Origin: Burkholderia seminalis DSM 23518
GTDB lineage: Bacteria > Pseudomonadota > Gammaproteobacteria > Burkholderiales > Burkholderiaceae
Assembly (NCBI RefSeq): GCF_902832885.1
Contig: NZ_CADFDK010000006.1
Location: 124,001-188,000, forward strand
DNA length: 64,000 bases
Direction: 5' to 3'
The position numbers and the translations under genes were made by a program. Below the pieces are notes generated by a model, which was given only the letters and a program-made list of their open reading frames with translations, searched no databases and was not told where the DNA came from. Below, piece by piece: positions 6,944 through 25,082 of the stretch (positions within the stretch are counted from its first letter, which is position 1; every line of letters begins with the position of its first letter).

Positions 6944-7020
6944 GGGCACGTGGAGGTTCGGCGCGGCACACCGCCGTTTCCCGATAAGATGGCAGATTCC
7001 GTTCATCGAACGAAGCTGCC

Positions 7021-9111: not shown

Positions 9112-9158
9112 GGTGACCTCTGAAAGAAGCGAACGGGTAAAACGCAAACAGGCGGCGG

Positions 9159-9566
9159 TTAGCTCGCGTGTCCGAGCAACACCACGGCGAACGTGAGCGT
9201 CGCCGCGAAGCCGGCAAGGAAAGCGATCGTGCGCACGACAGGAATGCCTGCGGCGTAGACAACGTAATGAATCAGCCGAGCGCCCAGATAGAGCCTGGCC
9301 GAGAACACCGTCGCCGGGCTGCTCGCCCCCGTCATCGCGCACATCAGCACGAGCGGGGCGAACACGGCGAGATTCTCGATCGCGTTCGCATGCGCGCGCC
9401 GTGCACGTTCTGCCCATAGCGGACCGGGCGGAGCGGACGGGTCGGGATTGTTCAAGGCCGCCATCAGGCCATGCGTCGTGATTCTGGCCAGCATGTAGGG
9501 GATCCACATCAGCAGCGTCGCGATCGCAGTAAGCGTCAGCAGGTGGAGTTCGGGCGAGTGTGTCAT
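9159..9566 (-). CDS. MAPEG-family membrane protein
   Basis: The 135-residue protein has four hydrophobic segments and the MAPEG pattern: ARRAHANAIENLAVFAPLVL in the middle and RLYLGARLIHYVVYAAG after it, with the conserved E-N and R-Y residues. MAPEG proteins are small membrane enzymes that often use glutathione. Here it precedes a cysteine synthase-like gene on the same strand, so a link to thiol metabolism is a reasonable inference only. Confidence 0.8.
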   Translation of the reverse strand: MTHSPELHLLTLTAIATLLMWIPYMLARITTHGLMAALNNPDPSAPPGPLWAERARRAHANAIENLAVFAPLVLMCAMTGASSPATVFSARLYLGARLIHYVVYAAGIPVVRTIAFLAGFAATLTFAVVLLGHAS

Positions 9567-9785
9567 CGGATGGGCCCTGTCGGACTGAAGGTGCAGGACA
9601 GATCTGCGGTTGCCGGAAATGCTTCGCAGTCTAGACGCGCGACGAGGCCCTCGCCATAGTCATAAATGACATTAATAGCGACAATCGCGACATCCCATCG
9701 ATATGGAATTCACCCGTCTTTTTGATCGGGACGATGCATCGGCGAAACGTCGCGCAAACGGCCACGCGTCGCCCATCGGATTCAT

Positions 9786-9893
9786 TCAGGCCGTACGCGA
9801 CACCAGCTTGCCCGGGACCGGGCCCAGTGCGACATGACCGCGCAGGATGTATTCAGGATTGCTTTCGAGATTGATCCAGCCTTCGTCGACGCC
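9786..9893 (-). pseudogene. C-terminal remnant of an unidentified protein
   Basis: Just past the stop codon of the GlxA-type regulator, in a different register, the minus strand encodes about 34 protein-like residues containing NLESNPEYILRGHVALG and PGKLVSRTA before a TGA at 9786-9788. A stop lies directly upstream in the same frame and there is no start codon, so this looks like the decayed tail of a gene whose front has been lost, perhaps where the regulator gene moved in. The family was not recognised. Confidence 0.35.
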
Positions 9894-9899
9894 TCACGG

Positions 9900-10871
9900 T
9901 CAACGACCCAGCCGGCTGTTGGCCCGGAGCTCCCGCACCCCACGGCCGAGCCTGCGGCGCAACAAAGCCCGCAACGTCGCCGCATCCGCATAGCCGACCT
10001 CGCTTGCGATCCTTTCCAGGTCGTACCCCATCGACACGAGATTCTGCGCCCGTTCGATCCGGAGATCCTGGAAAAACGCCAAGGGCGACTTCCCGAGTAC
10101 CGCCTCGGTACGGCGCTGCAACGTGCGCGGCCCGACGGCCAGGGCGGCGGCGGCCGTCTGAAGCGAAAAACCCACGGAAAGATTCTCGCGAGCCCATCGC
10201 TCGAATCGAGCGACCAGCGGATCCGCGTGCGCAAGGTAATCCGGAATGACGTATTCGGCCTGTGACGAACGCTTGTCGATCAGCATGAAACGCGCAACGA
10301 GCGTGGCCAGTTCGGGACTCGCTTGACGCAGCAACCAGAGCGCAAGGTCGAGATGCCCCATTGCCGATCCTGCCGTCACCAGACGATCCGCAGCGACGAC
10401 CATGCGCGAATCGTTCAGGTCCACGGCCGGATAACGTTGACGAAAGAACGGCGAGAGCGACCAGGTGGTCGTCGCCTCGCGATGATCCAGAAGCCCGGCT
10501 TCCGCCAGCACGAACGTACCGATGCAAGCGGCGGCGACGCCGACGCCATCGGCATGCCACGCCCGAAGGTGCGCCATTGCATCGCGCACATCCGGACGCT
10601 CCAGTGCCTCGATCAGGCGCTCCGGCTGTCTGATGCCAGGCGCGGGCACGACCACCCAGTCGACGTGGCGTACGCTGCTTGCCGGCTCCGCCAGCATGGA
10701 CAGTCCGTGCGCGGTCCGGACGCGTCTGCGTACGCCCACTACCCCGACGTCGAAGGGCGGCACGGCAAAGCCCCGCGCAGCAGCCAGTTCATTGGCCATC
10801 GCGAAGGTATCCAGCAGCACCGTAAGGCCGGTGTCGAATAGCCCTTCAAGGGCCAGAATGGATAATCTCAT
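9900..10871 (-). CDS. GlxA-family transcriptional regulator (DJ-1/PfpI plus AraC domains)
   Basis: The 323-residue protein has an N-terminal class I glutamine amidotransferase-like (DJ-1/PfpI) domain, residues about 1-190, with the nucleophile-elbow cysteine in AAACIGTFVLAEAGLL. A C-terminal AraC-type DNA-binding domain follows, residues about 215-320 (SLQTAAAALAVGPRTLQR and the second helix-turn-helix IASEVGYADAATLRALLRR). Such regulators often control catabolism of quaternary amines or oxidoreductases. It is divergent from the GNAT gene at 10984, with a 112-base shared promoter region, so it probably controls the GNAT-SDR pair. Confidence 0.88.
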   Translation of the reverse strand: MRLSILALEGLFDTGLTVLLDTFAMANELAAARGFAVPPFDVGVVGVRRRVRTAHGLSMLAEPASSVRHVDWVVVPAPGIRQPERLIEALERPDVRDAMAHLRAWHADGVGVAAACIGTFVLAEAGLLDHREATTTWSLSPFFRQRYPAVDLNDSRMVVAADRLVTAGSAMGHLDLALWLLRQASPELATLVARFMLIDKRSSQAEYVIPDYLAHADPLVARFERWARENLSVGFSLQTAAAALAVGPRTLQRRTEAVLGKSPLAFFQDLRIERAQNLVSMGYDLERIASEVGYADAATLRALLRRRLGRGVRELRANSRLGR

Positions 10872-10983
10872 GTCGTAAACACATCCATTAATGTCATTTA
10901 CGACTATAGCCCGCTTTCCGGGGAAAACCTAGACTGCACAGCATTGCAGCGAAGATTCCAGCTGCCTGGCAAAGGGGAAAAGC

Positions 10984-11700
10984 ATGAGCGGTTCGGAACC
11001 TGTCGGCCTCGACCATCCCGTCTGGTTGGCCCTCACGACGAAGCAGGCGCACCTCGGACAAGGTGACGCGCTCGCGCGTCGATACCATCCCGATGTGGCG
11101 CCTTTTGCCGCGCTGGCCGCCGAAACGCCCGCCGCATACCGGGCGCTCCAAGCCCTCTTACGGCCTCGCGAGCAACTCGCCTTGCTATCCGTCGAACCGA
11201 TTGGCCCGGTCGACGGACTTCAAACAGAGCATGCGGGCGTGATCCATCAAATGGTCGCCTCGCCTCTCGATGCGGGAATGAGCGATAACGAGGCAATCGT
11301 TCGGTTAGGCGCCGCCGACGCGAACGATATGCTCGAACTGGCCCGGAGAACCAAGCCGGGACCTTTCGGCAAGCGGACCGTCGCAACGGGCAATTACATC
11401 GGCATTCGCGAACGGGGACGTCTTGTTGCAATGGCCGGCGAACGCATGCGCATCGACGGATACGTCGAGATCAGCGCCGTTTGCGTGGATGACGCGCATC
11501 GCGGCAACGGACATGCCTGGCGGCTCGTGAACGTCTTGCGGCGGGAAATCGGGCAGCGCGGCGAAACACCGTTTCTGCACGTATTCAGCGACAACGTTTC
11601 CGCGATTCGGCTGTATGAGGGCCTGGGGTTCCAATTACGTCGCACGTTTCATCTCAACCGCATCGGACAGGCTCACGCCGATTCGGTTGCGGCTCTCTAA
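10984..11700 (+). CDS. GNAT-family N-acetyltransferase
   Basis: The 238-residue protein carries a GNAT fold in its second half. The acetyl-CoA loop is seen as VCVDDAHRGNGHAWRLVN (the R-x-x-G-x-G/A motif A) and the C-terminal beta-bulge as NVSAIRLYEGLGFQ. The first 100 residues fit the FR47-type arrangement. The substrate is unknown. The start has an AAAGGGGA ribosome site. It is followed after 25 bases by an SDR gene on the same strand and is divergent from a GlxA-type regulator. Confidence 0.85.
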   Translation: MSGSEPVGLDHPVWLALTTKQAHLGQGDALARRYHPDVAPFAALAAETPAAYRALQALLRPREQLALLSVEPIGPVDGLQTEHAGVIHQMVASPLDAGMSDNEAIVRLGAADANDMLELARRTKPGPFGKRTVATGNYIGIRERGRLVAMAGERMRIDGYVEISAVCVDDAHRGNGHAWRLVNVLRREIGQRGETPFLHVFSDNVSAIRLYEGLGFQLRRTFHLNRIGQAHADSVAAL

Positions 11701-11725
11701 CCTTGCTTGCTGGAAAACACTCGAC

Positions 11726-12604
11726 ATGTCCAAAACCATTCTGATCACCGGCGCCAGCAGCGGCTTCGGTCGCGATACGGCGGAGACGCTCTCGGCGGCC
11801 GGGCACCGCGTATTCGCGTCGATGCGCGACATCGCCGGCCGCAATCGGCCGCATGCCGACGCCCTTCGGGCAACAGGCGTGCACGTCGTCGAACTCGACG
11901 TGACGGACGACGCGTCCGTCGAGCGCGCCGTCGCTTCCGTGCTGGACGATGCCGGGCATCTCGACGTCCTGGTCAACAACGCCGGTATCGGATCGGCGGG
12001 TATTTCCGAGGCGTTCACGGCGAAGCAGGTACAGGCACTCTTCGACGTGAATGTATTCGGCATCCAGCGAACGTCGAGGGCAGTACTTCCGACTTTCAGG
12101 AAACAGGGCGAAGGCCTGATCGTGAACATCGGCTCGATACTCGGCCGCGTGACGTTTCCGTTCTTCGGTCTCTATGGCGCATCGAAGTTCGCGCTTGAAG
12201 CGCTGACCGACAGCTATCGCTACGAGTTGTCGACGTTGGGCATCGACGTCGTTCTCGTTCAACCCAGCAACTATCCGACGAATATCTTCGCGAGCGCGCA
12301 ACGGCCCTCCGACGCCGCGCGCGCCCCCGGCTACGGTGAAGTCGGTGCGATTCCGGACAAGATGGTGGAGACCCTGATGACGCTGTTCGCGAGCGACGAC
12401 GCGCCGAATCCGCACGACGTCGCCGAAGCGATCGTGCAGTTGGTCGAACAAGCAAACGGTACGCGCCCACCGCGTTGGGTCGTCGGACAGTCATTCGGTA
12501 CGGACGCCCTCAATGCCCAATCGGCCTCGATTCAGGCGCAGGTGCTCGACGGCCTCGGACTGGCGCACCTCGCCGAGCCGAAAAGACGATCCGCGGCGGC
12601 TTGA
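11726..12604 (+). CDS. Short-chain dehydrogenase/reductase
   Basis: A 292-residue classical SDR. The nucleotide-binding motif is TGASSGFG (residues 9-16 region), NNAG lies at 84-87, and the catalytic S137, Y150 and K154 are all present (YGASK). It should oxidise or reduce a hydroxyl/carbonyl group using NAD(P). It is probably translated with the GNAT gene 25 bases upstream. The C-terminal 60 residues are longer than in minimal SDRs, as in the group annotated as oxidoreductases acting on larger substrates. Confidence 0.9.
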   Translation: MSKTILITGASSGFGRDTAETLSAAGHRVFASMRDIAGRNRPHADALRATGVHVVELDVTDDASVERAVASVLDDAGHLDVLVNNAGIGSAGISEAFTAKQVQALFDVNVFGIQRTSRAVLPTFRKQGEGLIVNIGSILGRVTFPFFGLYGASKFALEALTDSYRYELSTLGIDVVLVQPSNYPTNIFASAQRPSDAARAPGYGEVGAIPDKMVETLMTLFASDDAPNPHDVAEAIVQLVEQANGTRPPRWVVGQSFGTDALNAQSASIQAQVLDGLGLAHLAEPKRRSAAA

Positions 12605-12760
12605 GGGTGCGGCCGACGCAGAAGCCCATATCGCCCAGCGGCACTGCCCCCGTCAGCTTCGCGCCGGCCGACGGCCGTCATTTCCGTCGAGGGCGATGAC
12701 GGCTACTCACTGCTGAAGCCGTCCCTGTCATATAGAATGACGCGCTTTGCCCGTACACCT

Positions 12761-13684
12761 ATGTGGTTCAAGAACCTTCAGCTTCATCGTCTTCCGGCGC
12801 CCTGGGCCGTTACCCCCGATCAGATGGAAAAATGGCTGGCGCCCCACGCGTTCCAGCCGGCCAACAGCCTCGAGATGCAGCGCCACGGCTGGGCGTCGCC
12901 GCGTGACGACGGCGCGCTCGTGTATTCGATCAACCGGCAGATGCTGCTGGTGTTTCGCGCCGAAAAGAAGCTGCTCCCGGCATCCGTCGTCAACCAGGTG
13001 ACCAAGGCGCGGGCGCTTGAAGTCGAGGAACAGCAGGGCTTCAAGGTCGGGCGAAAGCAGATGCGCGAACTCAAGGAGCAGGTCACCGACGAGCTGCTGC
13101 CGCGCGCGTTCACCATTCGCCGCGACACCCGCGTGTGGATCGATACGGCGAACGGCTGGCTCGTCATCGATGCGGCAGCACAGGCGCTCGCCGACGACGT
13201 GCTCGGCCTGCTCGTCAAATCGATCGATCAGTTGCCGCTCGCCGGCGTTCAGGTGGCGCTGTCGCCGGTCGCCGCGATGACGGATTGGCTGCTGTCGGGG
13301 GACGCGCCGGGCGGATTCACCGTGGACCAGGACGCCGAGCTGCGCTCGACCGGCGAAGGCGGCGCCACCGTGCGATACGTCGGCCACGCGCTGGAAACGA
13401 ACGACATGCGCCGGCACATCGAGGCCGGCAAGCAGTGCATGCGCCTCGCGATGACCTGGAACGACAGGATCTCGTTCGTGCTGACACCGTCGCTGACGAT
13501 CAAGCGTGTCACGCCGCTCGACGTGATCAAGGAAGCCGCGGATCCCACTGCCCAGAACGACGACGAACGCTTCGACTCGGACGTCGCGCTGATGACCGGT
13601 GAACTCGCGCGGATGTTGACCGATCTCGTCGATATCCTGGGTGGCGATCAGCAGGACGCGATTCAACGGGCGGCCGCGGCCTGA
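12761..13684 (+). CDS. rdgC: Recombination-associated protein RdgC
   Basis: The 307-residue product matches RdgC along its length: the [12 protein letters not shown] start, a [12 protein letters not shown] segment, [10 protein letters not shown], and the conserved internal [12 protein letters not shown]. RdgC forms a ring-shaped dimer on double-stranded DNA and limits RecA loading during recombination. The start at 12761 was chosen over an ATG 24 bases upstream because MWFKN is the conserved N-terminus. It is monocistronic, about 155 bases after the SDR gene. Confidence 0.95.
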
Positions 13685-13780
13685 ACGCCGTCGCGGGGCG
13701 ACGCTCGTCGGCCGCGCGCCGAAGCAGCCGCCGGCCGGCGTCGGCGCCGCTGCGATTGCGGGTTGCCCGCACGCCGGCCG

Positions 13781-14851
13781 TCAATCGGACGACGCCGGCG
13801 ACGTGTTTCCCTGCGGCGCACCGCACTGATGACAATGCGGGAAGAAATAGAAATTCCGGCCGCCGCATCCGCATACGTTGAAGAGCCGCAATCCGCAATG
13901 CACGCAGAACGTGACATCGTCGCCGCCGAGATTCCATTGCTTGTCGCATGACGGGCAGCGCTTTTTCTCGAGCGAGCGAACGGCCTTTTCGTATCCGATC
14001 GTCCGTGCACGTTCCCCCTGGTCCTGCTGCAGTTCGAGCCGCTTGCGTTCGGCATAACGCTGAAAGGCCTTCATCATGTAGAGACCGGCGAATACCGTGA
14101 GCACAATGCCGACCAGGACCCGGACGTAGCCACCGAAATTCGGCAGGTACGGGACCAGTTCGATGAAAAACGCGCTCAGCGCGAACAGGCCGAAACCATA
14201 GACGAAAGGCCAATAGCGCGCGTTGCGGTAGCGGATGAACAACCCGATCGCGATCAGCAGGATCGGCAGCGTCAGCGCCAGCCGCAGTCCGAACACCTGC
14301 AACTCGTAATGCCGGGTCGCCGCGTCGAAGCGCTTTTCGGCGGCGGCGTCCGCGTCGGCGATCTGCGTGTCGACTTCAGTCTGCCGCGATGCCAGTGCCC
14401 GTTGCTGGTCGCCGATCGCGTCGATCTGATGCTGCCAGTTGGTCACCACCGCCTGGAGCGTATCGAGCTTGCGGGTTCTCGCCAGAATGTCCGGGTCCCT
14501 CGCACTGTCTCCCGTCGCCGAGCGGGTTGCCAGCCAGTTGCGGAAGCTTTCCTTCTCGGCCGCGTACGCCTTCGCGGCGCGGCCGCGCGCCACTTCCATC
14601 GTGCTCGCCTGCTCGGCGAGCGCGTCGCGCCGGGCCTGCAGATCGCGCCGCGCCGCGTCCAGTCGCGCTTTCGTCGGCGCATCGGCGAATTGCTCGATGA
14701 CGGGCGGCCCGCCGCTCGGGGCGAACGCCATGTCGCGAATCACGAGACTGCCGAGCATGTTCAGAAAAACGGCGAAGACGATTGCAATCACCCATGAAGC
14801 GAGTCGCAGCAGCCGCGCTGGACGGGTCAGGCCATCGCTCGAAATCCTCAT
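13781..14851 (-). CDS. Coiled-coil membrane protein with C-terminal zinc ribbons
   Basis: The 356-residue protein was not assigned to a named family. Residues about 15-40 form one transmembrane segment. Residues about 55-190 are a long polar, alanine/glutamate/arginine-rich region of coiled-coil character, probably on one side of the membrane. Three further hydrophobic segments span about 190-265. The C-terminal 70 residues hold zinc-ribbon cysteine pairs (CPSC with CVHC, then CGCGG with CHQC). A serine-rich tail ends the protein. This combination suggests a membrane-anchored scaffold or sensor with a cytosolic metal-binding head. It lies convergent to rdgC, about 95 bases away. Confidence 0.7.
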   Translation of the reverse strand: MRISSDGLTRPARLLRLASWVIAIVFAVFLNMLGSLVIRDMAFAPSGGPPVIEQFADAPTKARLDAARRDLQARRDALAEQASTMEVARGRAAKAYAAEKESFRNWLATRSATGDSARDPDILARTRKLDTLQAVVTNWQHQIDAIGDQQRALASRQTEVDTQIADADAAAEKRFDAATRHYELQVFGLRLALTLPILLIAIGLFIRYRNARYWPFVYGFGLFALSAFFIELVPYLPNFGGYVRVLVGIVLTVFAGLYMMKAFQRYAERKRLELQQDQGERARTIGYEKAVRSLEKKRCPSCDKQWNLGGDDVTFCVHCGLRLFNVCGCGGRNFYFFPHCHQCGAPQGNTSPASSD

Positions 14852-15107
14852 TGTTTTGCCCTTGTTGGAATGGTCATGACCGGATTTGAGTCAGCCCTTT
14901 CGGCTGCGCCGGTATTGCCGCCACGTCTTGACAGGGACGGACGGCACGCGCGCTGGCCGATCATCCGCGCGCGACGGCCATTGAAGAATATCGCATGTTC
15001 AAGCGGCCCCTGAACGCCGTTCGGACCGGCACGGCAGCCAGGTACCCGTGTCGTCAGGTCGGCGCCGCTCCGCTCGACCGGGCAGGTTCGGCATGCCGGC
15101 GCGCAAG

Positions 15108-15509
15108 CTATCCGAAAACGCGCGCCCAAATCGCACGAAGGCGTCGCGCGCGGTCTTCGAGGAGATAGGAGGCTGCCAGCGCCAAGAGCCCTGAAATGAC
15201 GCCCGTCAGGATGTGCTCGACATAGGGGATGCGGTAGTGACTCGTGTGCGAATACGCGTCGCCCAGCGTCGTCAGGATGCCGACGACCAGCGCGTTGCCG
15301 AATCGGTGCGCGTAGAGTTTCGCCGCGGGCGTGAAAGTCAGGAGGACGGCCAGGAGTCCGGTAAGCAGGCCGGTATGAAAGGCAATGGTCCAGTGGGCAA
15401 CGCTCATGATATTGCCCCAGCTTCCCGGCATGCAGGTCATGCATGCGCTGGTCGGCTGCCAGAAACGCTGCGCAAACAGTCTGACGCGGTGCTTCCACTC
15501 GGATGCCAT
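15108..15509 (-). CDS. Small hypothetical membrane protein
   Basis: The 133-residue protein has a basic N-terminus with several cysteines (ACMTCMPGSWG) followed by three hydrophobic segments (WTIAFHTGLLTGLLAVLLTF, FGNALVVGILTTLGD, ILTGVISGLLALAASYLL). The organisation resembles small inner-membrane proteins of unknown role found in Burkholderia. It is about 255 bases from the zinc-ribbon gene on the same strand; that spacer contains nothing recognised. Confidence 0.6.
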   Translation of the reverse strand: MASEWKHRVRLFAQRFWQPTSACMTCMPGSWGNIMSVAHWTIAFHTGLLTGLLAVLLTFTPAAKLYAHRFGNALVVGILTTLGDAYSHTSHYRIPYVEHILTGVISGLLALAASYLLEDRARRLRAIWARVFG

Positions 15510-16030
15510 GATGCATTCCCGTCAATGCCGTTGTCCCGGCCCCCGCCGCCGCCCGTCTCGTCGAAACGGTTACCTGACCTCCAACGAGCCTGCCGCCGTC
15601 GTCCCGGATGGGTTGGCCGTGCGCCGTCGACGCCGGGCAATAACGGGGCATGGGGCAATACTACCGGCAAGATCGACGCCCGGATAGCCGGGCGCGGCGC
15701 CACGCCGCCTGCTTCTGTCGGCCAATCCCCCGCCTTCCTCTTCGTCGATCACCCGCCAAACGGACCCGGCTTCGCGCAGCACCCGGTTGCCCCACCCCAC
15801 GCCGGTTGCGAGCCTTCTGACGCCGCCTGCGAAATCCTTATCGAAATTGCTTCGTTCGCCTTTGCCCGTCCCGCCGCTAACGTGTTCGAAACGGCGGCGG
15901 CGCGCCCCCGGCATCGCAGGATGCGCAGCAACCGCCGCCATCACGACAACCGCGCCGCGATAACGGAACAGACCGGACGGGCCGCGTGCCCGCACCCCGC
16001 CAGGAACGTCCGCATCGCGCGCCCTTCGCG
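15510..16030. other. Divergent intergenic region, no gene seen
   Basis: A 520-base gap between divergent genes. Open frames here have arginine/proline-rich translations typical of noncoding GC-rich DNA. The only structure noted is a hairpin at 15677-15694 (CGCCCGG-ATAG-CCGGGCG). The promoter of the sulfur block probably lies here. Confidence 0.5.
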
Positions 16031-16597
16031 ATGCCCATGGCCACGAACGACCGCATCATCGACACGACGCCGCTCGACGTCCGCGCGCAACCGCTGATCG
16101 ACGCGCTGATCGACGAGTATTCGACCCGTTACGACGCATACCGCCCGGACAGCCGCGCGTCCGCGCGCGACGAACTCGCGCGCTACCCGGCCGACCTGTT
16201 CGCGCCGCCCGAAGGCGCATTCGTCCTGCTGCTGCGCGACGGCGAGACGATCGGCGGCGGCGCGTTCAAGCGCTACGACGCGCAGACCGCCGAACTCAAA
16301 CGCATCTGGACGCGCACCGACCTGCGCCGCCAAGGCCTCGCGCGACGCATCGTCGAAGCGCTCGAACTGCGCGCCTCGCGGCAGGGCTACCGCCGCCTCT
16401 ACCTGACCACCGGCTTTCGCCAGCCCGAAGCGTGGGCGCTGTACGACCGCACCGGCTATACGCGGCTGTTCGATGCGTCGTTCGACCCGGAAGCGTATTT
16501 CCACCTGCGCTTCGGCAAGGATCTCGTCGATCCGTCGCGCACCTCGACGCTCGCCGACCTGTGGGCGCCCGTGCCCGAACCGGTGCTGCCGCGCTGA
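16031..16597 (+). CDS. GNAT-family N-acetyltransferase of the organosulfur block
   Basis: The 188-residue GNAT protein has an acetyl-CoA binding loop in RTDLRRQGLARRIVEALE and a C-terminal WALYDRTGYTRL. By context it is the counterpart of the acetyltransferases YtmI/YxeL, which acetylate S-alkylated cysteines before oxidation in Bacillus; this role is inferred. It leads a block of six same-strand genes with short gaps (58, 52, 7, 59 and 36 bases). Two in-frame ATGs (16031 and 16037) are possible; neither has a strong ribosome site and the upstream one is reported. Confidence 0.8.
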   Translation: MPMATNDRIIDTTPLDVRAQPLIDALIDEYSTRYDAYRPDSRASARDELARYPADLFAPPEGAFVLLLRDGETIGGGAFKRYDAQTAELKRIWTRTDLRRQGLARRIVEALELRASRQGYRRLYLTTGFRQPEAWALYDRTGYTRLFDASFDPEAYFHLRFGKDLVDPSRTSTLADLWAPVPEPVLPR

Positions 16598-16655
16598 CGG
16601 CGCCGCGCCGGACACCTCATTTCTCGCCTTCCGCCTTCCACCACAGGACGTTTTC

Positions 16656-17603
16656 ATGCACCGAGCCGTACCGCTTTCTTCCCGCACCGTGCGCACGCTG
16701 GCCGCCGCGCTGATCGGCCTCACCGCCCTCGCTGCCGCGGCAGCCGCCGCGACGTTCGACCTGAGCCCCGAGCAGCGCGGCCGTCCGCGCGGCACGGCGG
16801 ACGCGGCGGTCGAGCGCGCGGTGCCCGCGTCGTTCAAGTTCGCGGAGCCCGGCACGCTGACGATCGGCATCGCGCCGAGCCTGCCGCCGATCAGCTCGTA
16901 TGCGACCGACGCGCGCACGGTGATCGGCTTCGACGCCGACATCGGCCAGCTCGTGTCCGACAGCCTCGGCCGCAAGCTGAAGATCGTCGCGCTCGCGTGG
17001 GCCGACTGGCCGCTCGCGCTCGAATCGGGGAAAGTCGACGCGGTGATCTCGAACGTGACCGTCACCGAGGAACGCAAGCAGAAGCTCGATTTCTCGACGT
17101 ATCGCAAGGATCAGGTCGGCTTCTACGTGCGCAACGACAGCAAGATCCAGGCGATCCGCGAGCCGAAGGACGTCGCCGGCCTGCGCATCGTGACCGACGC
17201 CGGCACCAACCAGGAAAAGATCCTGCTCGCCTGGGATCGCGAGAACGTCGCGCACGGGCTGAAACCGGTGCAGATCCAGTACTACGACGACCAGGCGATG
17301 CGCATCGTCGCCGTGCAGTCGGGCCGGGCCGATGCGGTGTTCAGCGTGAACTCGGTGCTCGCGTACCAGAGCGCGCAGCAAGGCAAGACGCGGCTCGTCG
17401 GCGCGATCAGCGGCGGCTGGCCGCGTACGGCCGACATCGCGATCGCGACGCGTCGCGGCAGCGGCCTCGCCGATCCGCTGACCGTCGCGCTGAACGGGCT
17501 GATCAAGAACGGCCGCTACCAGCAGGTGCTCGACCGCTGGAACCTCGCGTCCGAAGCGATCGACCAGTCACGCACGAATCCGCCGGGGCTGCCGAAGAGC
17601 TGA
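16656..17603 (+). CDS. ABC transporter substrate-binding protein, family 3 (amino-acid type), first paralogue
   Basis: The 315-residue protein has a signal peptide (about residues 1-30, ending AAAAA) and a family 3 solute-binding fold: LTIGIAPSLPPIS, FDADIGQLVSDSLGRKL, and SGKVDAVISNVTVTEERK. It would sit in the periplasm and deliver an amino acid or modified cysteine to the fused permease-ATPase encoded further on. It is clearly paralogous to the protein at 21958: both have the same odd segment before the domain and share the ATRRGSGLA and NPPGLP motifs near the C-terminus. Confidence 0.88.
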   Translation: MHRAVPLSSRTVRTLAAALIGLTALAAAAAAATFDLSPEQRGRPRGTADAAVERAVPASFKFAEPGTLTIGIAPSLPPISSYATDARTVIGFDADIGQLVSDSLGRKLKIVALAWADWPLALESGKVDAVISNVTVTEERKQKLDFSTYRKDQVGFYVRNDSKIQAIREPKDVAGLRIVTDAGTNQEKILLAWDRENVAHGLKPVQIQYYDDQAMRIVAVQSGRADAVFSVNSVLAYQSAQQGKTRLVGAISGGWPRTADIAIATRRGSGLADPLTVALNGLIKNGRYQQVLDRWNLASEAIDQSRTNPPGLPKS

Positions 17604-17655
17604 ACACCGCGCGCCACCACCGCCCATCCACGCTCACGCAGGAACGCCGCCCATC

Positions 17656-18705
17656 ATGTCTTATTCGCTTTCGCTGCTGGACAAGAGTCCGATCGCCGAC
17701 GGCGCGACCGCCGCCGACGCGCTGCGCTTCACCACCACACTCGCGCGGCGCGCCGAACAGCTCGGCTACGCGCGTTTCTGGGTCGCCGAGCATCACGGCA
17801 CACCGGGCTTCGCGAGTTCTGCGCCGGAAATCGTCGTCGCGCACCTGCTCGCGCATACGTCCCGGATCCGGATCGGCTCGGGCGGCGTGATGCTGCAGCA
17901 CTACAGCCCGTTCAAGGTCGCCGAGACGTTCAAGCTGCTGGCCGCGCTCGCGCCCGGCCGCGTCGATCTCGGCATCGGCAAGGCGCCTGGTGGCCTGCCG
18001 CTGACCACACGCGCGCTGCAGTGGTTTCACGACAAGGCGCGCAAGCCCGACTTCGCGGGCCAGCTCGCGGAGCTCGACGCGTTTCTCGGCTGGGGCGTCG
18101 CCGAAGATCATCCGCTCGCCGGCGCGGTCGCGATGCCGGTGGCGCCGCAACCGCCCGAGCGCATCCTGCTCGGCGGCTCGCCGGAAAGCGGTGCGCTCGC
18201 CGCGCGCAACGGCTGGCGCTTCTGCTACGCGGGCCATTTCAACGGCGACGATGCGAATCTCGAACGCTCGCTCGATGCATACCGCGGCGCGGGCGGCACG
18301 AAGCCGCTCGTCGCGCTGTATGCGGTCGCCGCGCCGACGCGCGACGAAGCCGAGCAATTGATCGGGCCGCTGAAGATCTTCAAGCTGCAGTTCGCGGGCG
18401 GGCAGAGCTTCAACCTCGCCAGCGCGCAGGCGGCCGCCGAATTCGCGCGGCAAAGCGGCGCGTCCGACTACCGGATCGACGAACTGCGCCCGACCGTGCT
18501 GGCCGATACGCCCGAGCGCATCCACCGCGCGCTCGACGCGTTGAGCCGGCGGCTCGACGTCGATGCATTCGTGATCGATTCGCCGGTGACCGACTACGCG
18601 GCGCGGCTCGCGTCGGCCGAATGGCTCGGCGGCGCGCTGTCGGCCACCCCGTTGCAGGCGGCCCTCGCGGCCGACCGCGCCCTCTCCCCTGACCAGAACG
18701 CGTGA
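17656..18705 (+). CDS. LLM-class flavin-dependent oxidoreductase (YtmO-like)
   Basis: The 349-residue protein has the luciferase-like monooxygenase barrel: LSLLDKSPIADG start, YARFWVAEHHGTPGFASS, then IRIGSGGVMLQHYSPFKVAETF and the RVDLGIGKAPGG segment typical of the LLM group named after alkanal monooxygenase relatives. It uses reduced FMN supplied by a partner reductase. In context it parallels YtmO of the Bacillus ytm operon. The next monooxygenase starts only 7 bases after its stop, so they are translated together. Confidence 0.88.
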   Translation: MSYSLSLLDKSPIADGATAADALRFTTTLARRAEQLGYARFWVAEHHGTPGFASSAPEIVVAHLLAHTSRIRIGSGGVMLQHYSPFKVAETFKLLAALAPGRVDLGIGKAPGGLPLTTRALQWFHDKARKPDFAGQLAELDAFLGWGVAEDHPLAGAVAMPVAPQPPERILLGGSPESGALAARNGWRFCYAGHFNGDDANLERSLDAYRGAGGTKPLVALYAVAAPTRDEAEQLIGPLKIFKLQFAGGQSFNLASAQAAAEFARQSGASDYRIDELRPTVLADTPERIHRALDALSRRLDVDAFVIDSPVTDYAARLASAEWLGGALSATPLQAALAADRALSPDQNA

Positions 18706-18712
18706 CGCTCCC

Positions 18713-20065
18713 ATGACGACCCGACGATCGATCCCCTTCGGCCTGATGCTGCAAGGCGCAGGCAGCCACATGAACGCATGGCGGCATCCGAGCAACCCGC
18801 CGGACGCGAGCATCAACCTCGACTTCGCGATCGGCGTCGCGCGCAAGGCGGAAGCCGCCGGCATCGCGTTCGCGTTCGTCGCGGACGGCCTCTACATCAA
18901 CGAGAAGTCGATCCCGCACTTCCTGAACCGCTTCGAGCCACTGACCGTGTTGTCGGCGCTGGCGGTCGCGACGAAGAAGATCGGGCTCGCGGGCACGATC
19001 TCGACGTCGTACAGCGAGCCGTTCACGGTCGCGCGCCAGCTCGCGTCGCTCGATGCGATCAGCGGCGGCCGCGCGGGCTGGAACGTCGTGACGACGCCGC
19101 TCGAAGGCACCGCGAGGAATTTCGGCAAGGCGCATCCCGATCACGAACTGCGCTACGAGATCGCCGACGAATACCTCGACGTCGTGCAAGGCCTGTGGGA
19201 CAGCTGGGACGACGACGCATTCGTGCGCGACCGCGCGACCGGCCGTTTCTTCGATCGCGACAAGCTCCACACGCTCAACCACCACGGCCGCTTCTTCCAG
19301 GTCGCGGGGCCGCTGAACATCCAGCGCTCGCCACAGGGGCAGCCGGTGATCTTCCAGGCCGGCTCGTCCGACACCGGGATCGGACTCGCGGGCAAGTATG
19401 CGGACGCGGTGTTCACGCATTCGCCGTCGATCGAGGAAACGGCCGCGTTCACGCGGCGCGTGAAGCAGAGCGCGATCGAGCACGGGCGGCAAGCCGGCGA
19501 CGTGAAGATCTTCCCCGGCGTCGGGCCGATCGTCGGCCGCACGGCCGCCGAGGCGGAAGACAAATACCAGGCGATCCGCGACCTGCTGACGATCGACGAG
19601 GCGCTCGCGTACCTCGGCCGCTATTTCGATCACCACGACTTCACGCAGTACGCGCTCGACGCGCCGTTCCCGGAACTCGGCGACCTCGGCCGCAACAGCT
19701 TCCGCTCGACCACCGACCGGATCAAGGCCGACGCGAAGCGGAAAGGCCTGTCGCTGCGCGAAACCGCGCTCGCGGTCGCCACGCCGCGCCCGAACTTCAT
19801 CGGCACGGCCGAGCATGTCGCCGACGAACTGATCCGCTGGCACGACGCAGGCGCCGGCGACGGCTTCATCCTCGGTTTTCCGGTGCAGGCGCAGGGCGTC
19901 GACGATTTCGTCGAACTCGTGATTCCGGTGCTCGAGGCGCGCGGCCGCTACAGCCGCGACCTGCCCGGCGCAACGCTGCGCGACCACCTCGGCCTGCCGC
20001 GCAAGGCAAGCCGCCATGCGGCGCCCGGCGCGCCGCACGAAACGGCGGCCGAAGCGCACGCCTGA
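18713..20065 (+). CDS. NtaA/SnaA/DszA-family FMN-dependent monooxygenase (YtnJ/YxeK-like)
   Basis: The 450-residue length and motifs (FGLMLQGAGSHMNAWRHP, then FAFVADGLYIN, STSYSEPFTVARQLASLD and GRAGWNVVTT) place it in the NtaA/SnaA/SoxA/DszA group, which oxidises C-S or C-N bonds with reduced FMN and oxygen. In Bacillus, YtnJ and YxeK of this group cleave the carbon-sulfur bond of N-acetylated S-alkylcysteines. The same role is inferred here from the neighbours, not shown by the sequence alone. It sits between the LLM enzyme and the transporter gene. Confidence 0.88.
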   Translation: MTTRRSIPFGLMLQGAGSHMNAWRHPSNPPDASINLDFAIGVARKAEAAGIAFAFVADGLYINEKSIPHFLNRFEPLTVLSALAVATKKIGLAGTISTSYSEPFTVARQLASLDAISGGRAGWNVVTTPLEGTARNFGKAHPDHELRYEIADEYLDVVQGLWDSWDDDAFVRDRATGRFFDRDKLHTLNHHGRFFQVAGPLNIQRSPQGQPVIFQAGSSDTGIGLAGKYADAVFTHSPSIEETAAFTRRVKQSAIEHGRQAGDVKIFPGVGPIVGRTAAEAEDKYQAIRDLLTIDEALAYLGRYFDHHDFTQYALDAPFPELGDLGRNSFRSTTDRIKADAKRKGLSLRETALAVATPRPNFIGTAEHVADELIRWHDAGAGDGFILGFPVQAQGVDDFVELVIPVLEARGRYSRDLPGATLRDHLGLPRKASRHAAPGAPHETAAEAHA

Positions 20066-20124
20066 CGCCGCCGCGCCGCCCGTGCGCGGCGCGCCTGCCC
20101 GACGACTCGAGGATTTCCAACGAC

Positions 20125-21921
20125 ATGAGCGACACGACCCATCTCGGCGGCGCACTGCCGCCGCTCTCTTCCCCCGGCGCGCGCGACGCCGGCACGCGTT
20201 TGCGGATCGTGCCCGCGCGCCACCGGTCGCGCACGGCCGGCACCGTGCTCGCGCTGGTGCTGATCGCGATCGCGCTGCATTCGATCCTCGGCAATCCGCA
20301 ATGGGGCTGGCCGGTGTTCGCCGAATGGTTCCTGTCGCCGCCGGTGCTGTCGGGGCTCGCGCGCACGCTGCTGCTGACGCTGCTGGGTGCGGTGTTCGGC
20401 TTCGCGCTCGGCGCGTTCGTCGCACTGGCCCGGCTGTCGCGTTCGCGCTTGCTGTCCGCCAGCGCCTGGACCTTCGTGTGGCTGTTCCGCTCGATTCCGC
20501 TGATCGTGCTGCTGCTGATCCTGAACAACCTCGGCTACCTGTACGAACACGTGCGGCTCGGCGTGCCGTTCACCGACATCGTGTGGTTCGAGGCGCCGAC
20601 CACCGACCTGATCAGCCCGTTCCTCGCGGCCGTGCTCGGCCTCACGCTGAACCACGCGGCCTTTTCCGCGGAAGTGATACGCGGCGGCATTCTCGCGGTC
20701 GACCAGGGGCAGCTCGAGGCAGCGGCCGCGCTCGGGCTGCCGCGCGGCCGCCAGACCACGCGGATCGTGCTGCCGCAGGCGATGCGCGCGATCCTGCCGA
20801 CCGCGTTCAACGACCTGATCTCGCTCGCGAAAGGCACGTCGATGGTGTACGTGCTCGCGATGCCCGAGCTGTTCTACACGGTGCAGGTGATCTACCGCCG
20901 CAATCTCGAAGTGATTCCGCTGCTGATGGTCGCGACCGTCTGGTACCTGATCATCCTGACCGTGCTGTCGGCGATCCAGGTGCAGGTCGAGCGGCACTAT
21001 GCGCGCGGTGCGCTGCGCAATCCGCCGCCGTCCGTGCTCACGTTCGCGCTCGCGCGCATCGGCGTGCTGTGGCGGCGTGCCGCGGCGCGCCGCGCGGCGG
21101 CGATCGCGCCGGCCGCAAGTGTTATCCGCGAAGATGTCGCTGCCGACGCCGCGCCGCGCACCGGCGGCGAAGTGGCCGTGCACGGTGTATCGAAGCAGTT
21201 CGGCATGCAGCGCGTGCTCGACAACGTGTCGTTCGTCGCGCCGCGCGGCAGCGTGACCGCGATCGTCGGGCCGTCGGGCTCCGGCAAGTCGACGCTGCTG
21301 CGCACGATCAACCATCTCGAACGCGTCGACGACGGCTACATCGACATCGACGGCGAACTGATCGGCTATCGCCGCGACGGCGACGTGCTCCACGAGCTGA
21401 AGGAGCGCGACGTGCTGAAGCGGCGCACGGCCGTCGGCATGGTGTTCCAGAACTTCAACCTGTTCCCGCACCTGACGGTGCTCGAGAACCTGATCGAAGC
21501 GCCGGTTGCCGTCGGCGGCGTCACGCGCGACGATGCCGAACGCACCGCGCGCACGCTGCTCGCGCGCGTCGGCCTCGCCGACAAGGCCGATGCGTACCCG
21601 CGCCAGTTGTCGGGCGGCCAGCAGCAGCGCGTCGCGATCGCGCGGGCGCTCGCGTTGCGTCCGAAGGTGCTGCTGTTCGACGAACCGACGTCGGCGCTCG
21701 ATCCCGAACTCGTCAACGAAGTGCTCGACGTGATCAAGGAACTCGCACGCTCGGGCACGACGCTCGTGATCGTCACGCACGAGATCGGCTTCGCGCGCGA
21801 AGTCGCCGACAACGTGCTGTTCATGGAGCGCGGGCGCATCGTCGAGGCCGGACCGCCGGCCGCCGTGCTCGATGCGCCGGCCCATCCGCGCACACGCGCG
21901 TTCCTGTCGCGGGTGCTGTGA
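20125..21921 (+). CDS. Fused amino-acid ABC transporter permease/ATP-binding protein
   Basis: This 598-residue protein joins two normally separate subunits. Residues about 35-310 form a HisM-type permease with five or six membrane segments and the EAA-loop (EAAAALGLPRGRQTTRIVLPQ). After a linker, residues about 350-598 are the ATPase: Walker A GPSGSGKST, Q-loop FQNFNLFPHLTV, signature LSGGQQQRVAIARAL, Walker B VLLFDEPTSALDP and the H-loop VTHE. Two such proteins would make a complete importer. The start at 20125 follows a GAGG site; an apparent longer frame upstream overlaps the monooxygenase gene and was rejected. Two family 3 binding proteins flank the block and probably share this transporter. 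Confidence 0.93.
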   Translation: MSDTTHLGGALPPLSSPGARDAGTRLRIVPARHRSRTAGTVLALVLIAIALHSILGNPQWGWPVFAEWFLSPPVLSGLARTLLLTLLGAVFGFALGAFVALARLSRSRLLSASAWTFVWLFRSIPLIVLLLILNNLGYLYEHVRLGVPFTDIVWFEAPTTDLISPFLAAVLGLTLNHAAFSAEVIRGGILAVDQGQLEAAAALGLPRGRQTTRIVLPQAMRAILPTAFNDLISLAKGTSMVYVLAMPELFYTVQVIYRRNLEVIPLLMVATVWYLIILTVLSAIQVQVERHYARGALRNPPPSVLTFALARIGVLWRRAAARRAAAIAPAASVIREDVAADAAPRTGGEVAVHGVSKQFGMQRVLDNVSFVAPRGSVTAIVGPSGSGKSTLLRTINHLERVDDGYIDIDGELIGYRRDGDVLHELKERDVLKRRTAVGMVFQNFNLFPHLTVLENLIEAPVAVGGVTRDDAERTARTLLARVGLADKADAYPRQLSGGQQQRVAIARALALRPKVLLFDEPTSALDPELVNEVLDVIKELARSGTTLVIVTHEIGFAREVADNVLFMERGRIVEAGPPAAVLDAPAHPRTRAFLSRVL

Positions 21922-21957
21922 TGCGCGCCGCGCCCCCCCCCTGCAAGGAGCCGCACG

Positions 21958-22890
21958 ATGACCGACCGGCGCCAGTTCATCACCGCCGCGCTGGCCGCGG
22001 CGACCGTCCTGCCGTGGCAGGCCGCGCACGCGGCGGCGGCCACCGCCGATCTCGACCCGCGCCAGGCCGGCCGCCTGCGCGCGGACCGCGACGACGCGGC
22101 GATCCGCGCGGCGGCCGCCTACCGCTGGGTGCGCGACAGCGCATTCACGGTCGCGATTTCGCCGCACGCGCCGCCCGTGTCGACCTACGCGACCGACGCG
22201 CGCACCGTGGTCGGCGCCGATCCCGATTACGCGCAGCTCGTCGCCGACGCGCTCGGCCGCACGCTCGTGCTGGTGCCGATCGCCTGGGCCGACTGGCCGC
22301 TCGGGCTGACGTCCGGCAAGTACGACGCGGTGATCTCGAACGTGGGCGTGACCGAGAAGCGCAAGGAGAAATACGACTTCACGACCTACCGGCTCGGGCT
22401 GCACGGCTTCTACGTGCGCACCGGCAGCCCGATCGCGAAGATCGCCGAGCCGAAGGACGTCGCGGGCCTGCGGATCATCACCGGCGCCGGCACGAGCCAG
22501 GAGCGCATCCTGCTCGAATGGAGCAAGCGCAACGTCGCGCAGGGGCTGAAGCCGGCCGAACTGCTCTACTTCGACGACGATGCGACGGCGCGCATCGCGC
22601 TGCTGTCGGGCCGTGCCGATGCGGAGCTGAACCCGAACGCGTCGCTCGCGTACGAGGCCGCGCGCAGCGGCAAGATCCGCCGCGTCGGCGTCGTCAATGC
22701 GGGCTGGCCGGCCAATGCCGATGTCGCGATCGCGACGCGTCGCGGCAGCGGGCTCGCACCGGCGCTGACGCTCGCGACGAATGCGCTGATCGGCAGCGGT
22801 CGTTACGGGCAGGCGCTCGCGCGTTGGGGGTTGCAGAGCGAGGCGATCGCGCGCGCGGAAACCAATCCGCCGGGGTTGCCGTCGTTCTGA
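21958..22890 (+). CDS. ABC transporter substrate-binding protein, family 3, second paralogue
   Basis: The 310-residue protein has a TAT-like or Sec signal (MTDRRQFITAALAAATV, cleavage after AHA) and the family 3 binding fold (SAFTVAISPHAPPVSTYATD, SGKYDAVISNVGVTEKRKEKYDF). It is a paralogue of the protein at 16656 and ends with the same NPPGLP motif. Having two related receptors for one fused transporter suggests two related ligands, for example different S-substituted cysteines. A C-rich tract and a GGAG ribosome site separate it by 36 bases from the transporter gene. Confidence 0.88.
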   Translation: MTDRRQFITAALAAATVLPWQAAHAAAATADLDPRQAGRLRADRDDAAIRAAAAYRWVRDSAFTVAISPHAPPVSTYATDARTVVGADPDYAQLVADALGRTLVLVPIAWADWPLGLTSGKYDAVISNVGVTEKRKEKYDFTTYRLGLHGFYVRTGSPIAKIAEPKDVAGLRIITGAGTSQERILLEWSKRNVAQGLKPAELLYFDDDATARIALLSGRADAELNPNASLAYEAARSGKIRRVGVVNAGWPANADVAIATRRGSGLAPALTLATNALIGSGRYGQALARWGLQSEAIARAETNPPGLPSF

Positions 22891-22960: not shown

Positions 22961-24055
22961 CTATGCCGGCACGGCTGCCTGATGCCGGTCGAGTTCCGCA
23001 ACATGCGCGTGAATCGCCGGGATCAGGTCGCGCCCGTAGGCCAGCGCATCGTCGAGCGGATCGAACCCGCGAATCAGGAACGTCGACACGCCGAGCCGGT
23101 AATACGCGCCCAGCGCCCGCGCGACCTGTTCCGGCGTGCCGACCAGCGCGGTCGAATTCCAGCGCGCGCCGGTCAGGTTCGCGACCCCCATCCACAACCG
23201 CTCGTCGAGCACGTCGCCCTGTGCGGCCGCTGCCATCAGCCGCTGCGAGCCCGCATTCTGCGGCGCATGCCCGGCAATCGGCTGGCCGTTCGCGACCCGC
23301 GCCGCGCGCACGCGCGCGCGGATCGCCTCGGCCTTCTCCCAGGCGGCCGCCTCGGTATCGGCAACGATCGGCCGGAACGACACGCTGATACGCGGCGCAC
23401 GCCCGAACGGCGCGGCGGCGGCCCGCACGCGCGCGATCTGCTCGCGCACCGCTTCGAGCGGCTCGCCCCAGGTCATGTAGACGTCCGCATGCTCGCCCGC
23501 GACCGCCAGCGCGGCCGGCGACGACCCACCGAAATAGATCGGCACATGCGGCCGCTGCGTGCCCTTCACGAGCGGCGACGCGCCGCGCAGCCGGTAGAAC
23601 GTGCCGTCGTGATCGACCGGCGCGTCGGCCAGCCAGATCCGCTTCAGCACGTCGAGATATTCGCCGGTGCGGCGGTAGCGCGCATCGTGCGGCACGAAAT
23701 CGCCGTCGCGCTGCAGGTCCGCGTCGTCGCCGCCCGACACGACATTCAGCGCGAGCCGGCCGCCGCTGAACACGTCGAGCGTCGCGATCTGCCGCGCGGC
23801 GGCCGACGGCACGATCACGCCCGGCCGATGCGCGAGCAGGATGCGGATGCGCTCGGTCGCGGCGGCCGCGAACGACGCGACGATGAAGCCGTCCGCCGCG
23901 TTGCTGAAATGGCCGACCAGGATCTGGTCGAAGCCGGCCGCCTCGTGCGCCTGCGCGAAGCGGCGCACGTAATCGGGCTGGACGGCCGCGCCGCCCGGTA
24001 CGTCGACCTCCGCGCCGGGCGTCGCGGTGATCATGCCGATGATGTCGACTGGCAT
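22961..24055 (-). CDS. LLM-class FMN-dependent monooxygenase, SsuD-like
   Basis: The 364-residue protein resembles alkanesulfonate monooxygenases: DYVRRFAQAHEAAGFDQILVGH, RPGVIVPSAAARQIATLDVFSGGRL with the family NVVSGGD motif, and YFGGSSPAAL. Such enzymes use reduced FMN to release sulfite from organosulfonates or open related C-S bonds. The gene is convergent with the sulfur block, with 70 bases between stops, and lies 61 bases after an SsuA-like gene on its own strand. The start at 24055 was chosen for the conserved MPVDIIGMI opening. Confidence 0.85.
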   Translation of the reverse strand: MPVDIIGMITATPGAEVDVPGGAAVQPDYVRRFAQAHEAAGFDQILVGHFSNAADGFIVASFAAAATERIRILLAHRPGVIVPSAAARQIATLDVFSGGRLALNVVSGGDDADLQRDGDFVPHDARYRRTGEYLDVLKRIWLADAPVDHDGTFYRLRGASPLVKGTQRPHVPIYFGGSSPAALAVAGEHADVYMTWGEPLEAVREQIARVRAAAAPFGRAPRISVSFRPIVADTEAAAWEKAEAIRARVRAARVANGQPIAGHAPQNAGSQRLMAAAAQGDVLDERLWMGVANLTGARWNSTALVGTPEQVARALGAYYRLGVSTFLIRGFDPLDDALAYGRDLIPAIHAHVAELDRHQAAVPA

Positions 24056-24116: not shown

Positions 24117-25082
24117 TCACTGCGCGGCGGCCGTCTTCTGCGCGGGCACCGCGAATGCGCCCGCATACGAGCGGTCGAGCAGTTTCGACGTGTCGTATGC
24201 GACCGGAATCACGCCGGCCTTGTGCAGGAAGTCGGCGGTATTCTGCGCGTCCTTCGCGGCCGTTTCGTCGACCGGGCCGACGCGCTGCTTCGCGTTGTTC
24301 AGCCAGCGGTACGCGACGTCCGGTTCGAGCTTCGCGCGCTTCGCCCATAGGTCCGCGTACTCGCGCGGATGGCTGTCGACCCACTGACGCGCGGCCACCA
24401 CGCGCCGCAGGAAGTCGGTGATCTCGGCGCGCTTGCCCGATGCGGCCTGCTCGTTCGCGGCGACGAAACTCAGCGCGGGCATCAACCCCTGCGCGGTCGT
24501 CACCGTCCGCGCGCCTTGCCGCAGCGCGAGGGTGCTGACGAACGGCTCCCACAGCGACACGGCGTCGACCGAGCCGTTCGCGAGCGCGTTGGTCGCATCG
24601 ATCGGCATCAGGTACGCGTACTTGACCGAATCGGCGCGCAGGCCCGCGTGTTCGAGCGCGCGCAGCACGAGCTGCTGGCTCCACGCGCCGCGCCAGACGG
24701 CGATGGTCTTGCCCTGCAGGTCGGCCACGGTGCGCACGGGCGAATCCTTCGGCACGAGGATCGCGACGCCGTCGAGGCTTTGCCGCGATACCGCGACGAC
24801 CTTGACCGGCGCGCCGCGCGCGGCCAGCGTCAGCAGCGCGGAATCGCCGAGGAAGCCGACGTCGATCGCATTGCCGTTCAGGCTTTCGGCGACGGGAGCG
24901 GCGGCCTGGAAGTGCTTCCACTCGATCGTGTAAGGCAGGTCCTTCAGCGCGCCGGACGCCTCCATCGACGCCTGGATGTTGAAGTAGTTCTGTTCACCGA
25001 CGCGCAGCGTGACGGTGTCCTTGGCAAAGCCCGGCTGGGCGGCAAGCGCCAGCAAGAGCGCCATGACGATTCGGCTCGACAA
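24117..25082 (-). CDS. Aliphatic sulfonate/nitrate-type ABC substrate-binding protein, SsuA-like
   Basis: The 321-residue periplasmic protein has a short signal peptide (cleavage near AQPGFA) and the SsuA/TauA/NMT1-type fold: EWKHFQAAAPVAESLNGNAIDVGFLGDSALL, VPKDSPVRTVADLQGKTIAV and DAVSLWEPFVSTL. It should bind an organosulfur or aromatic sulfonate ligand. No permease or ATPase of the SsuBC type follows in the window; it may work with an importer encoded elsewhere. It is transcribed with the SsuD-like gene. Confidence 0.88.
   Translation of the reverse strand: MSSRIVMALLLALAAQPGFAKDTVTLRVGEQNYFNIQASMEASGALKDLPYTIEWKHFQAAAPVAESLNGNAIDVGFLGDSALLTLAARGAPVKVVAVSRQSLDGVAILVPKDSPVRTVADLQGKTIAVWRGAWSQQLVLRALEHAGLRADSVKYAYLMPIDATNALANGSVDAVSLWEPFVSTLALRQGARTVTTAQGLMPALSFVAANEQAASGKRAEITDFLRRVVAARQWVDSHPREYADLWAKRAKLEPDVAYRWLNNAKQRVGPVDETAAKDAQNTADFLHKAGVIPVAYDTSKLLDRSYAGAFAVPAQKTAAAQ

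Follow-up and report, generated by a model that had tools for sequence, protein, structure and literature searches.

The 64,000-nt stretch of Burkholderia seminalis DSM 23518 analysed here (hereafter the window; G+C content 67.2%, host genome 8 Mb) carries a block of six adjacent plus-strand genes at 16031–22890 and, upstream on the same strand at 7021–8055, a gene for an AstE/AspA-family (M14-type, DoeB-like) deacylase. We propose that the block is probably the Burkholderiaceae form of Cmo (ytm-type) S-alkylcysteine salvage, in which the AstE/AspA-family enzyme would non-homologously replace the M20 deacetylase (YtnL type). The pathway type is known; what would be new is the use of another deacetylase family in a Gram-negative version of it.

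An earlier reading of the sequence alone (the original prediction) had described the six genes, and profile matches confirmed both their arrangement and their types. The block opens with a GNAT N-acetyltransferase (16031–16597; PF00583 at 1e-15), followed by a family 3 solute-binding protein (SBP), SBP1 (16656–17603; PF00497 at 5e-26), and by two luciferase-like monooxygenases (LLMs) whose genes lie 7 bp apart. The first of these is CmoO/YtmO-like (17656–18705; TIGR03558, 336 bits, cut-off 167) and the second CmoJ/YtnJ-like (18713–20065; TIGR03860, 522 bits, cut-off 280). An ABC permease fused to its ATPase (20125–21921) and a second family 3 binding protein, SBP2 (21958–22890; PF00497 at 6e-20), complete the block. 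As the original prediction had also stated, the block has no M20 deacetylase, and none is encoded anywhere in the window.

In the proposed pathway, S-substituted cysteines would enter through the fused permease-ATPase with the help of SBP1 and SBP2, and the GNAT would acetylate their amino group as the first step. The CmoO homologue would turn the N-acetyl-S-alkylcysteine into its sulfoxide, whose C–S bond would be cleaved by the CmoJ homologue. The N-acetylcysteine sulfenate would then be reduced, the pathway needing a flavin reductase and a sulfenate reductase, and the deacylase encoded at 7021–8055 would perform the final deacetylation to cysteine. For B. subtilis, a passage of PMC10863075 describes sulfoxide formation from N-acetylated S-alkylcysteine by CmoO, cleavage by CmoJ and subsequent deacetylation.

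Linkage of the deacylase gene to CmoJ

In a sample of 200 genomes of the family (Burkholderiaceae), CmoJ (E<=1e-150) was found in 30, including 22 of the 23 genomes of the same genus. The deacylase (E<=1e-90) was present in 35 genomes, among them all 30 CmoJ-positive ones and 23/23 of the same genus. For 28 of the 30 (27 fetched relatives and the window), the deacylase gene lies on the CmoJ contig, on the same strand and upstream. The distance from the end of the deacylase to the start of CmoJ ranges from 0.8 to 14.2 kb in the fetched relatives and is 10.7 kb in the window; G134 and G181, where deacylase and CmoJ are split between contigs, were left out of this list. Five fetched stretches were dropped before counting, three with CmoJ and no deacylase (L177, L187 and L189) and two with the deacylase and no CmoJ (L186 and L188).

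The gap between deacylase and GNAT spans 0.2–11.3 kb across the 27 relatives and is below 1.3 kb in 18 of them. In three other genera the deacylase stands 172–580 bp before the GNAT gene (8/8 loci); within the same genus the gap is 0.8–11.3 kb and not always empty. Two genomes (G112 and G189) retain a deacylase-GNAT-CmoJ trio, and opposite it lie another CmoJ gene and importer genes that are not fused. A common ancestral operon may underlie this arrangement.

Plasmids gave a similar result. CmoJ was found in 234 records of the plasmid collection, the deacylase in nine and both in eight, and in all eight the deacylase precedes CmoJ by 2.8–7.3 kb and shares its strand. On Paraburkholderia terrae plasmid pPT365, seven genes are contiguous in the order deacylase (WP_229518001.1), GNAT, SBP, LLM, LLM, permease/ATPase, SBP. 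Burkholderia arboris had the nearest named match in this collection, at 98% identity in CmoJ and 99.4% in the deacylase. As a control, a hand count of 13 distant deacylase paralogues (35–45% identity) found none within 15 kb of CmoJ.

Distribution of M20 and AstE/AspA-family enzymes

Three members of the M20 family, ScmP, YhaA and YtnL, are known from B. subtilis. A passage of PMC12757645 presents these three as redundant N-acetylcysteine deacetylases.

Beyond the family, CmoJ (E<=1e-140) was detected in 2 of 369 genomes of the class sample, the host genome included, and in 26 of 398 genomes of the phylum sample. In 23 Pseudomonadota genomes outside the family, all 25 CmoJ loci were fetched, and 19 had an M20 gene in the cluster; of the remaining six, L216 and L217 are second copies, and four, from family f162, have a different layout linked to SsuA. 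The AstE/AspA-family deacylase occurred at none of the 25 loci, and none of these 23 genomes encodes a relative above 45% identity, five having distant ones (36–43%). In Comamonas odontotermitis (Burkholderiales), Haematobacter massiliensis and Phyllobacterium the cluster reads LLM-LLM-M20-GNAT-permease/ATPase-SBP. The C. odontotermitis (L243) and Phyllobacterium (L246) clusters share homologous genes, the fused importer and the receptors with the window, but have an M20 aminoacylase directly after CmoJ and no AstE/AspA enzyme annotated in the stretch.

The reverse holds in Burkholderiaceae. Within the fetched stretches, the 32 CmoJ loci considered, from 30 genomes, had no M20 gene; they comprise 30 fetched loci, the window, and L049, a second cluster of the host genome. 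A tblastn search with YtnL (E 1e-5) was negative for all 32, the whole 64-kb window included. Among the Bacillota matches listed, 57 of 80 CmoJ loci have an M20 gene in the fetched flank and none has an AstE/AspA enzyme. The two families are thus complementary in their distribution across these loci. The cluster M20s themselves form two separate lineages in the tree, which suggests that the deacetylase slot has been refilled before. The original prediction had named the enzyme at 7021 as a possible replacement for the M20 deacetylase, a role for which the conserved linkage and the complementary M20 distribution both argue.

The AstE/AspA-family deacylase

The deacylase belongs to the AstE/AspA (M14) family by its match to PF24827 (AstE_AspA_cat, 1e-34) and by its HxxE, NR, H and E residues. 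Residues H63, E66, N115, R116, H149 and E213, presumably the metal and catalytic residues, are invariant in an alignment of 15 rows. The AlphaFold model is confident (predicted local distance difference test 91.6; predicted template modelling score 0.90). At present the family is annotated only as "succinylglutamate desuccinylase/aspartoacylase".

Its nearest characterised relative is DoeB (6TWL; phmmer 3e-57), named N-acetyl-diaminobutyrate deacetylase in the PDB entry. The match to the DoeB equivalog profile TIGR02994 reached 235 bits, below the cut-off of 402.7, and the tree joins DoeB to another paralogue of the same genus (L201; support 100/99), apart from the deacylase. Trees were built with length filters of 250–330 aa. 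In the deacylase tree this filter removed L161 and L163, which show only parts of the loci L166 and L167; L055, which shows the window's edge a second time, was excluded by name.

Mammalian aminoacylase-3 (Acy3, M14 family) deacetylates mercapturic acids according to a passage of PMC11511702. Both DoeB, which acts on N-acetyl-L-2,4-diaminobutyrate, and aminoacylase-3 resemble the window enzyme in family and in the deacetylation of N-acetyl amino acids proposed for it; the window enzyme differs from DoeB in its sub-threshold score and its sulfur-gene context, and its kinship to Acy3 is one of family only. Among the matches listed in open-licence literature, we found neither an aspartoacylase-type N-acetylcysteine deacetylase nor this Burkholderia block.

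The two monooxygenases

The CmoJ homologue matched B. subtilis YtnJ with 539 bits and 55% identity over ~440 aa, nearly end to end. Other named enzymes followed at a distance: DszA at 259 bits, EDTA monooxygenase at 210 and alkane monooxygenase at 201. By sequence the enzyme is therefore nearer to YtnJ than to DszA, EmoA or LadA, and the same is true in relation to YxeK: in B. inaquosorum it shares 57% identity with the ytm-operon enzyme versus 45% with the yxe-locus paralogue, and the YxeK-type row falls outside the tree group formed by YtnJ and the window enzyme (forks 99/95 and 96/97). One chain, 3SDO, scored above YtnJ (626 bits) and is labelled nitrilotriacetate monooxygenase by its depositor; it lies inside the window enzyme's own proteobacterial group, in a tree that holds no characterised NtaA. 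A YxeK-type assignment (2-succinocysteine) was rejected on the identities and the tree, so that of the YtnJ/YxeK type proposed in the original prediction the YtnJ half holds and the YxeK half falls away.

The CmoO homologue is 41% identical to YtmO over 331 aa and is a member of the CmoO/YtmO group. Because the CmoJ homologue groups with YtnJ and a CmoO homologue is present, the block is, at the level of sequence, ytm-like and not yxe-like. The Bacillus yxe/scm S-(2-succino)cysteine operon does share with it a GNAT, an NtaA/DmoA-family monooxygenase and an amino-acid ABC importer, but its monooxygenase is the more distant one, and the yxe region as fetched yielded no counterpart of the CmoO homologue present in the window.

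Acetyltransferase, importer and receptors

The GNAT showed no detectable homology to its Bacillus counterparts, with no significant match to YtmI (E 0.18) and none to the yxe-locus GNAT (YxeL type) at an E limit of 0.01. It is 44–61% identical to the GNATs of the 19 M20-type clusters, and its second-best match among solved structures was YsnE (E 2.6e-6), a B. subtilis protein. At two second CmoJ copies (L216 and L217, in two genomes of family f192), a YtmI-like GNAT (37–44%) lies nearby, unlike in the main clusters.

Both halves of the importer resemble Tcy components, the ATPase half being 47% identical to TcyN and the permease half 28–37% identical to TcyL/TcyM. SBP1 matched TcyK at 22.6% identity (1e-12). 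SBP2 and the SBP1 orthologue of L151 share 58% identity across 281 aa, and the two receptors are therefore paralogues, as had been predicted. The fusion of permease and ATPase was likewise borne out, both domains (PF00528 at 92–291 and PF00005 at 365–523) being in one frame of 598 aa. Since gene order and fusion recur in genomes of the same genus, neither is due to chance or to an assembly artefact. The fused importer was considered as a novelty and rejected, five annotated relatives that were opened carrying the NCBI name 'amino acid ABC transporter permease/ATP-binding protein'.

Compared with the Bacillus ytm/cmo operon (YtmI, TcyJKLMN, YtmO, YtnJ, YtnL), the window thus has CmoJ and CmoO homologues, a GNAT and an amino-acid ABC importer with two receptors (TcyJ/TcyK there), but it differs in its fused permease-ATPase, its GNAT, its AstE/AspA enzyme and the lack of a block M20. 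None of the six block genes significantly matches YtnM. The statement that the gene set equals that of the Bacillus operons consequently fails, on the GNAT, the M20 and YtnM. For the predicted salvage of S-substituted cysteines, the core of CmoJ, CmoO and a TcyLMN-like importer stands, and the GNAT as a YtmI does not.

The deacylase outside the CmoJ context

Five of the 35 deacylase-positive genomes have no CmoJ (G155, G006, G138, G184 and G190), and the deacylase is therefore not exclusive to the Cmo pathway. In three of these, G138, G184 and G190, all from one genus, and also in Cupriavidus necator C39, the gene stands beside genes for a rhodanese-repeat protein, an SBP, an ABC importer and a pyridoxal phosphate (PLP) enzyme (4/4 loci). 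The PLP enzyme of L224 (cluster at 6610–13639) scored above the cystathionine beta-lyase cut-off (TIGR01324, 397 versus 366 bits), and L223, L225 and L247 share the L224 cluster genes at 81–96% identity. Three of the five CmoJ-less genomes thus clearly place the deacylase in sulfur-amino-acid surroundings. G002, of the same genus as G138, G184 and G190, has no deacylase. In G006 the context is weak, with an SBP gene preceding the deacylase and a related PLP enzyme (41%) encoded ~6 kb away.

These loci allow a tentative wider proposal, which we regard as possible and well short of likely. The deacylase may found a bacterial AstE/AspA branch that deacetylates N-acetyl-cysteine and its S-conjugates, a counterpart of aminoacylase-3. 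It would end Cmo salvage in Burkholderia and Paraburkholderia, and would start a separate mercapturate route, free of acetylation and monooxygenases, in Cupriavidus-type genomes. There, the deacylase together with the importer, the cystathionine beta-lyase and the rhodanese protein would consume imported mercapturates. No report of such a route was found among the matches listed in open-licence literature.

Counter-evidence and alternative explanations

Several observations weigh against a Cmo pathway completed by the AstE/AspA-family enzyme. In G134 and G181 the deacylase and CmoJ are on different contigs, at least ~90 kb apart in G134, and the linkage counts come from related genomes that are not phylogenetically independent. 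The five deacylase-positive genomes without CmoJ belong here too; in one of them, G155, the deacylase abuts SsuD-SsuA and the block is absent. Similarly, homology of the GNAT to YtmI or YxeL could not be detected, the deacylase fails to reach the cut-off of the DoeB equivalog, and its seven structure matches include no chain of Acy3 or of a mammalian aspartoacylase. In the fetched part of the second CmoJ cluster of the host genome, on contig C14 (L049), both deacetylase types are absent. Absence of an M20 gene from a cluster need not mean replacement, because Bacillota loci too can have none in the flank (23 of the 80 among the matches listed). Finally, a single transcript is unlikely in the window, because the same-genus gaps between deacylase and GNAT, even those of ~1 kb, can hold unrelated genes; the 1.1-kb gap of L179 carries an MqsA-type antitoxin gene (L179:9008–9304). 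The deacylase and the block may still be co-expressed across the insert.

The best-surviving alternative, which we consider possible at perhaps one chance in a few, is that the block serves another organosulfur compound (e.g. a mercapturate, a cysteine S-oxide or a plant thioether) by similar chemistry and with a different import substrate. The two paralogous receptors and the TonB receptor in sister clusters would be in keeping with this, as would a GNAT unlike YtmI and the adjacent SsuD/SsuA genes. It is opposed by the recurrence of CmoO, CmoJ, GNAT and a deacetylase gene together across several families, which fits acetylation, cleavage and deacetylation.

Somewhat less probable, and in our view unlikely, is a Cmo-type pathway in which a general M20 amidohydrolase encoded elsewhere deacetylates, the AstE/AspA enzyme being a passenger that acts on another N-acyl amino acid. 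A genome-wide search for M20 deacetylases, as the original prediction had advised, returned 18 M20_dimer matches. Eight of them are 37–41% identical to YtnL, comparable to some cluster M20s (40–48%), and five of these eight are placed as the sister group of M20s from the clusters in families f15, f206 and f219, all of which speaks against the AstE/AspA enzyme as the deacetylase. The redundancy of the three B. subtilis deacetylases and the presence of the deacylase without CmoJ in 5/35 genomes also favour a general M20 enzyme. Nevertheless, none of the genome's M20 matches lies inside the window, none of the 32 Burkholderiaceae loci as fetched has an M20 gene, and the linkage is kept in 28 of 30 genomes while neighbouring genes change, the trio persisting even in G112 and G189.

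It is highly improbable that the enzyme at 7021 has nothing to do with sulfur and is an ectoine-pathway deacetylase of the DoeB type: DoeB is its best named family and best characterised structure, the ATPase half matches EhuA best (305 bits, cut-off 345; TcyN next, 305 bits, cut-off 406) and SBP1 matches EhuB weakly (26 bits), but the deacylase falls short of the DoeB cut-off (235 versus 403 bits), DoeB groups with the L201 paralogue instead, and none of the ten window proteins searched, genes further out not being searched, is an ectoine enzyme above its cut-off.

If the AstE/AspA-family enzyme does complete the Cmo pathway, two unrelated enzyme families would fill the deacetylation step of cysteine salvage, and M20 genes alone could neither find nor exclude the pathway. 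A family annotated so generally would also gain a specific function. A ready genetic assay would be offered by the B. subtilis triple mutant (scmP yhaA ytnL) described in a passage of PMC12757645, where growth with N-acetylcysteine as the source of nitrogen was the test.

Insert, neighbouring genes and related clusters

Between the deacylase and the GNAT gene, the window holds a variable insert of ~8 kb (8056–16030, Pfam search). It encodes a cysteine-synthase-like PALP protein (8173–9075, minus strand), a MAPEG protein (minus), a GlxA/AraC-type regulator (minus), a GNAT, a short-chain dehydrogenase/reductase, RdgC and a membrane protein (minus) with a weak, below-cut-off match to DUF4407 only. 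The deacetylase had earlier been viewed as missing because this insert parts the deacylase from the GNAT. Insert content differs between relatives, and the interval appears as an insertion hot spot with varying cargo. In Haematobacter, a cysteine synthase family gene follows an M20-type cluster (L244:16164–17186). Upstream, a LysR gene at 6038, considered as a possible dedicated regulator, adjoins the deacylase. It has this position in L181 too; elsewhere among the fetched loci, where the flanks upstream are mostly short (~1–5 kb), it was not recognised.

Downstream of the block, on the minus strand, are genes for an SsuD-like LLM (22964–24055; TIGR03565, 252 bits, below the SsuD cut-off of 518) and an SsuA-family sulfonate-binding protein (24120–25082; TIGR01728, 221 bits, above the cut-off of 163.5). 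An SsuD/SsuA-like pair facing the block had been predicted; the convergent orientation and the SsuA assignment hold, and the other gene is SsuD-like only. It is a neighbour, outside the cysteine pathway proper. SsuD and/or SsuA (>80% identity) adjoin the block in 16 same-genus loci, with many fetched stretches ending near there.

The block varies in composition elsewhere. CmoO is absent between SBP1 and CmoJ in L176 (G193) and also in L151, the other block genes being kept. A Burkholderia cenocepacia plasmid typed as conjugative (NZ_CP091015.1; L245) carries GNAT-SBP-CmoO-CmoJ-permease/ATPase; the annotation of this stretch shows neither a second SBP nor a deacylase.

The host genome encodes nine TIGR03860 members above the cut-off, and more clusters of luciferase-like monooxygenases and importers were seen at C14:66–98 kb and C3:4–27 kb. 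The cluster at L049:1952–10532, on C14, is a second, paralogous copy of the block, with identities to the window of 58% (GNAT), 64% (SBP), 72% (CmoO), 77% (CmoJ) and 69% (fused permease-ATPase). After it come genes for an LLM, an ExbB-type protein and another CmoJ-type enzyme (59%). L049 also encodes a TonB-dependent receptor of 825 aa, and a receptor 70–94% identical to it is encoded between SBP1 and CmoO in L168, L169, L171, L172, L173 and L177. The presence of this receptor in Burkholderiaceae clusters suggests outer-membrane uptake of the substrate.

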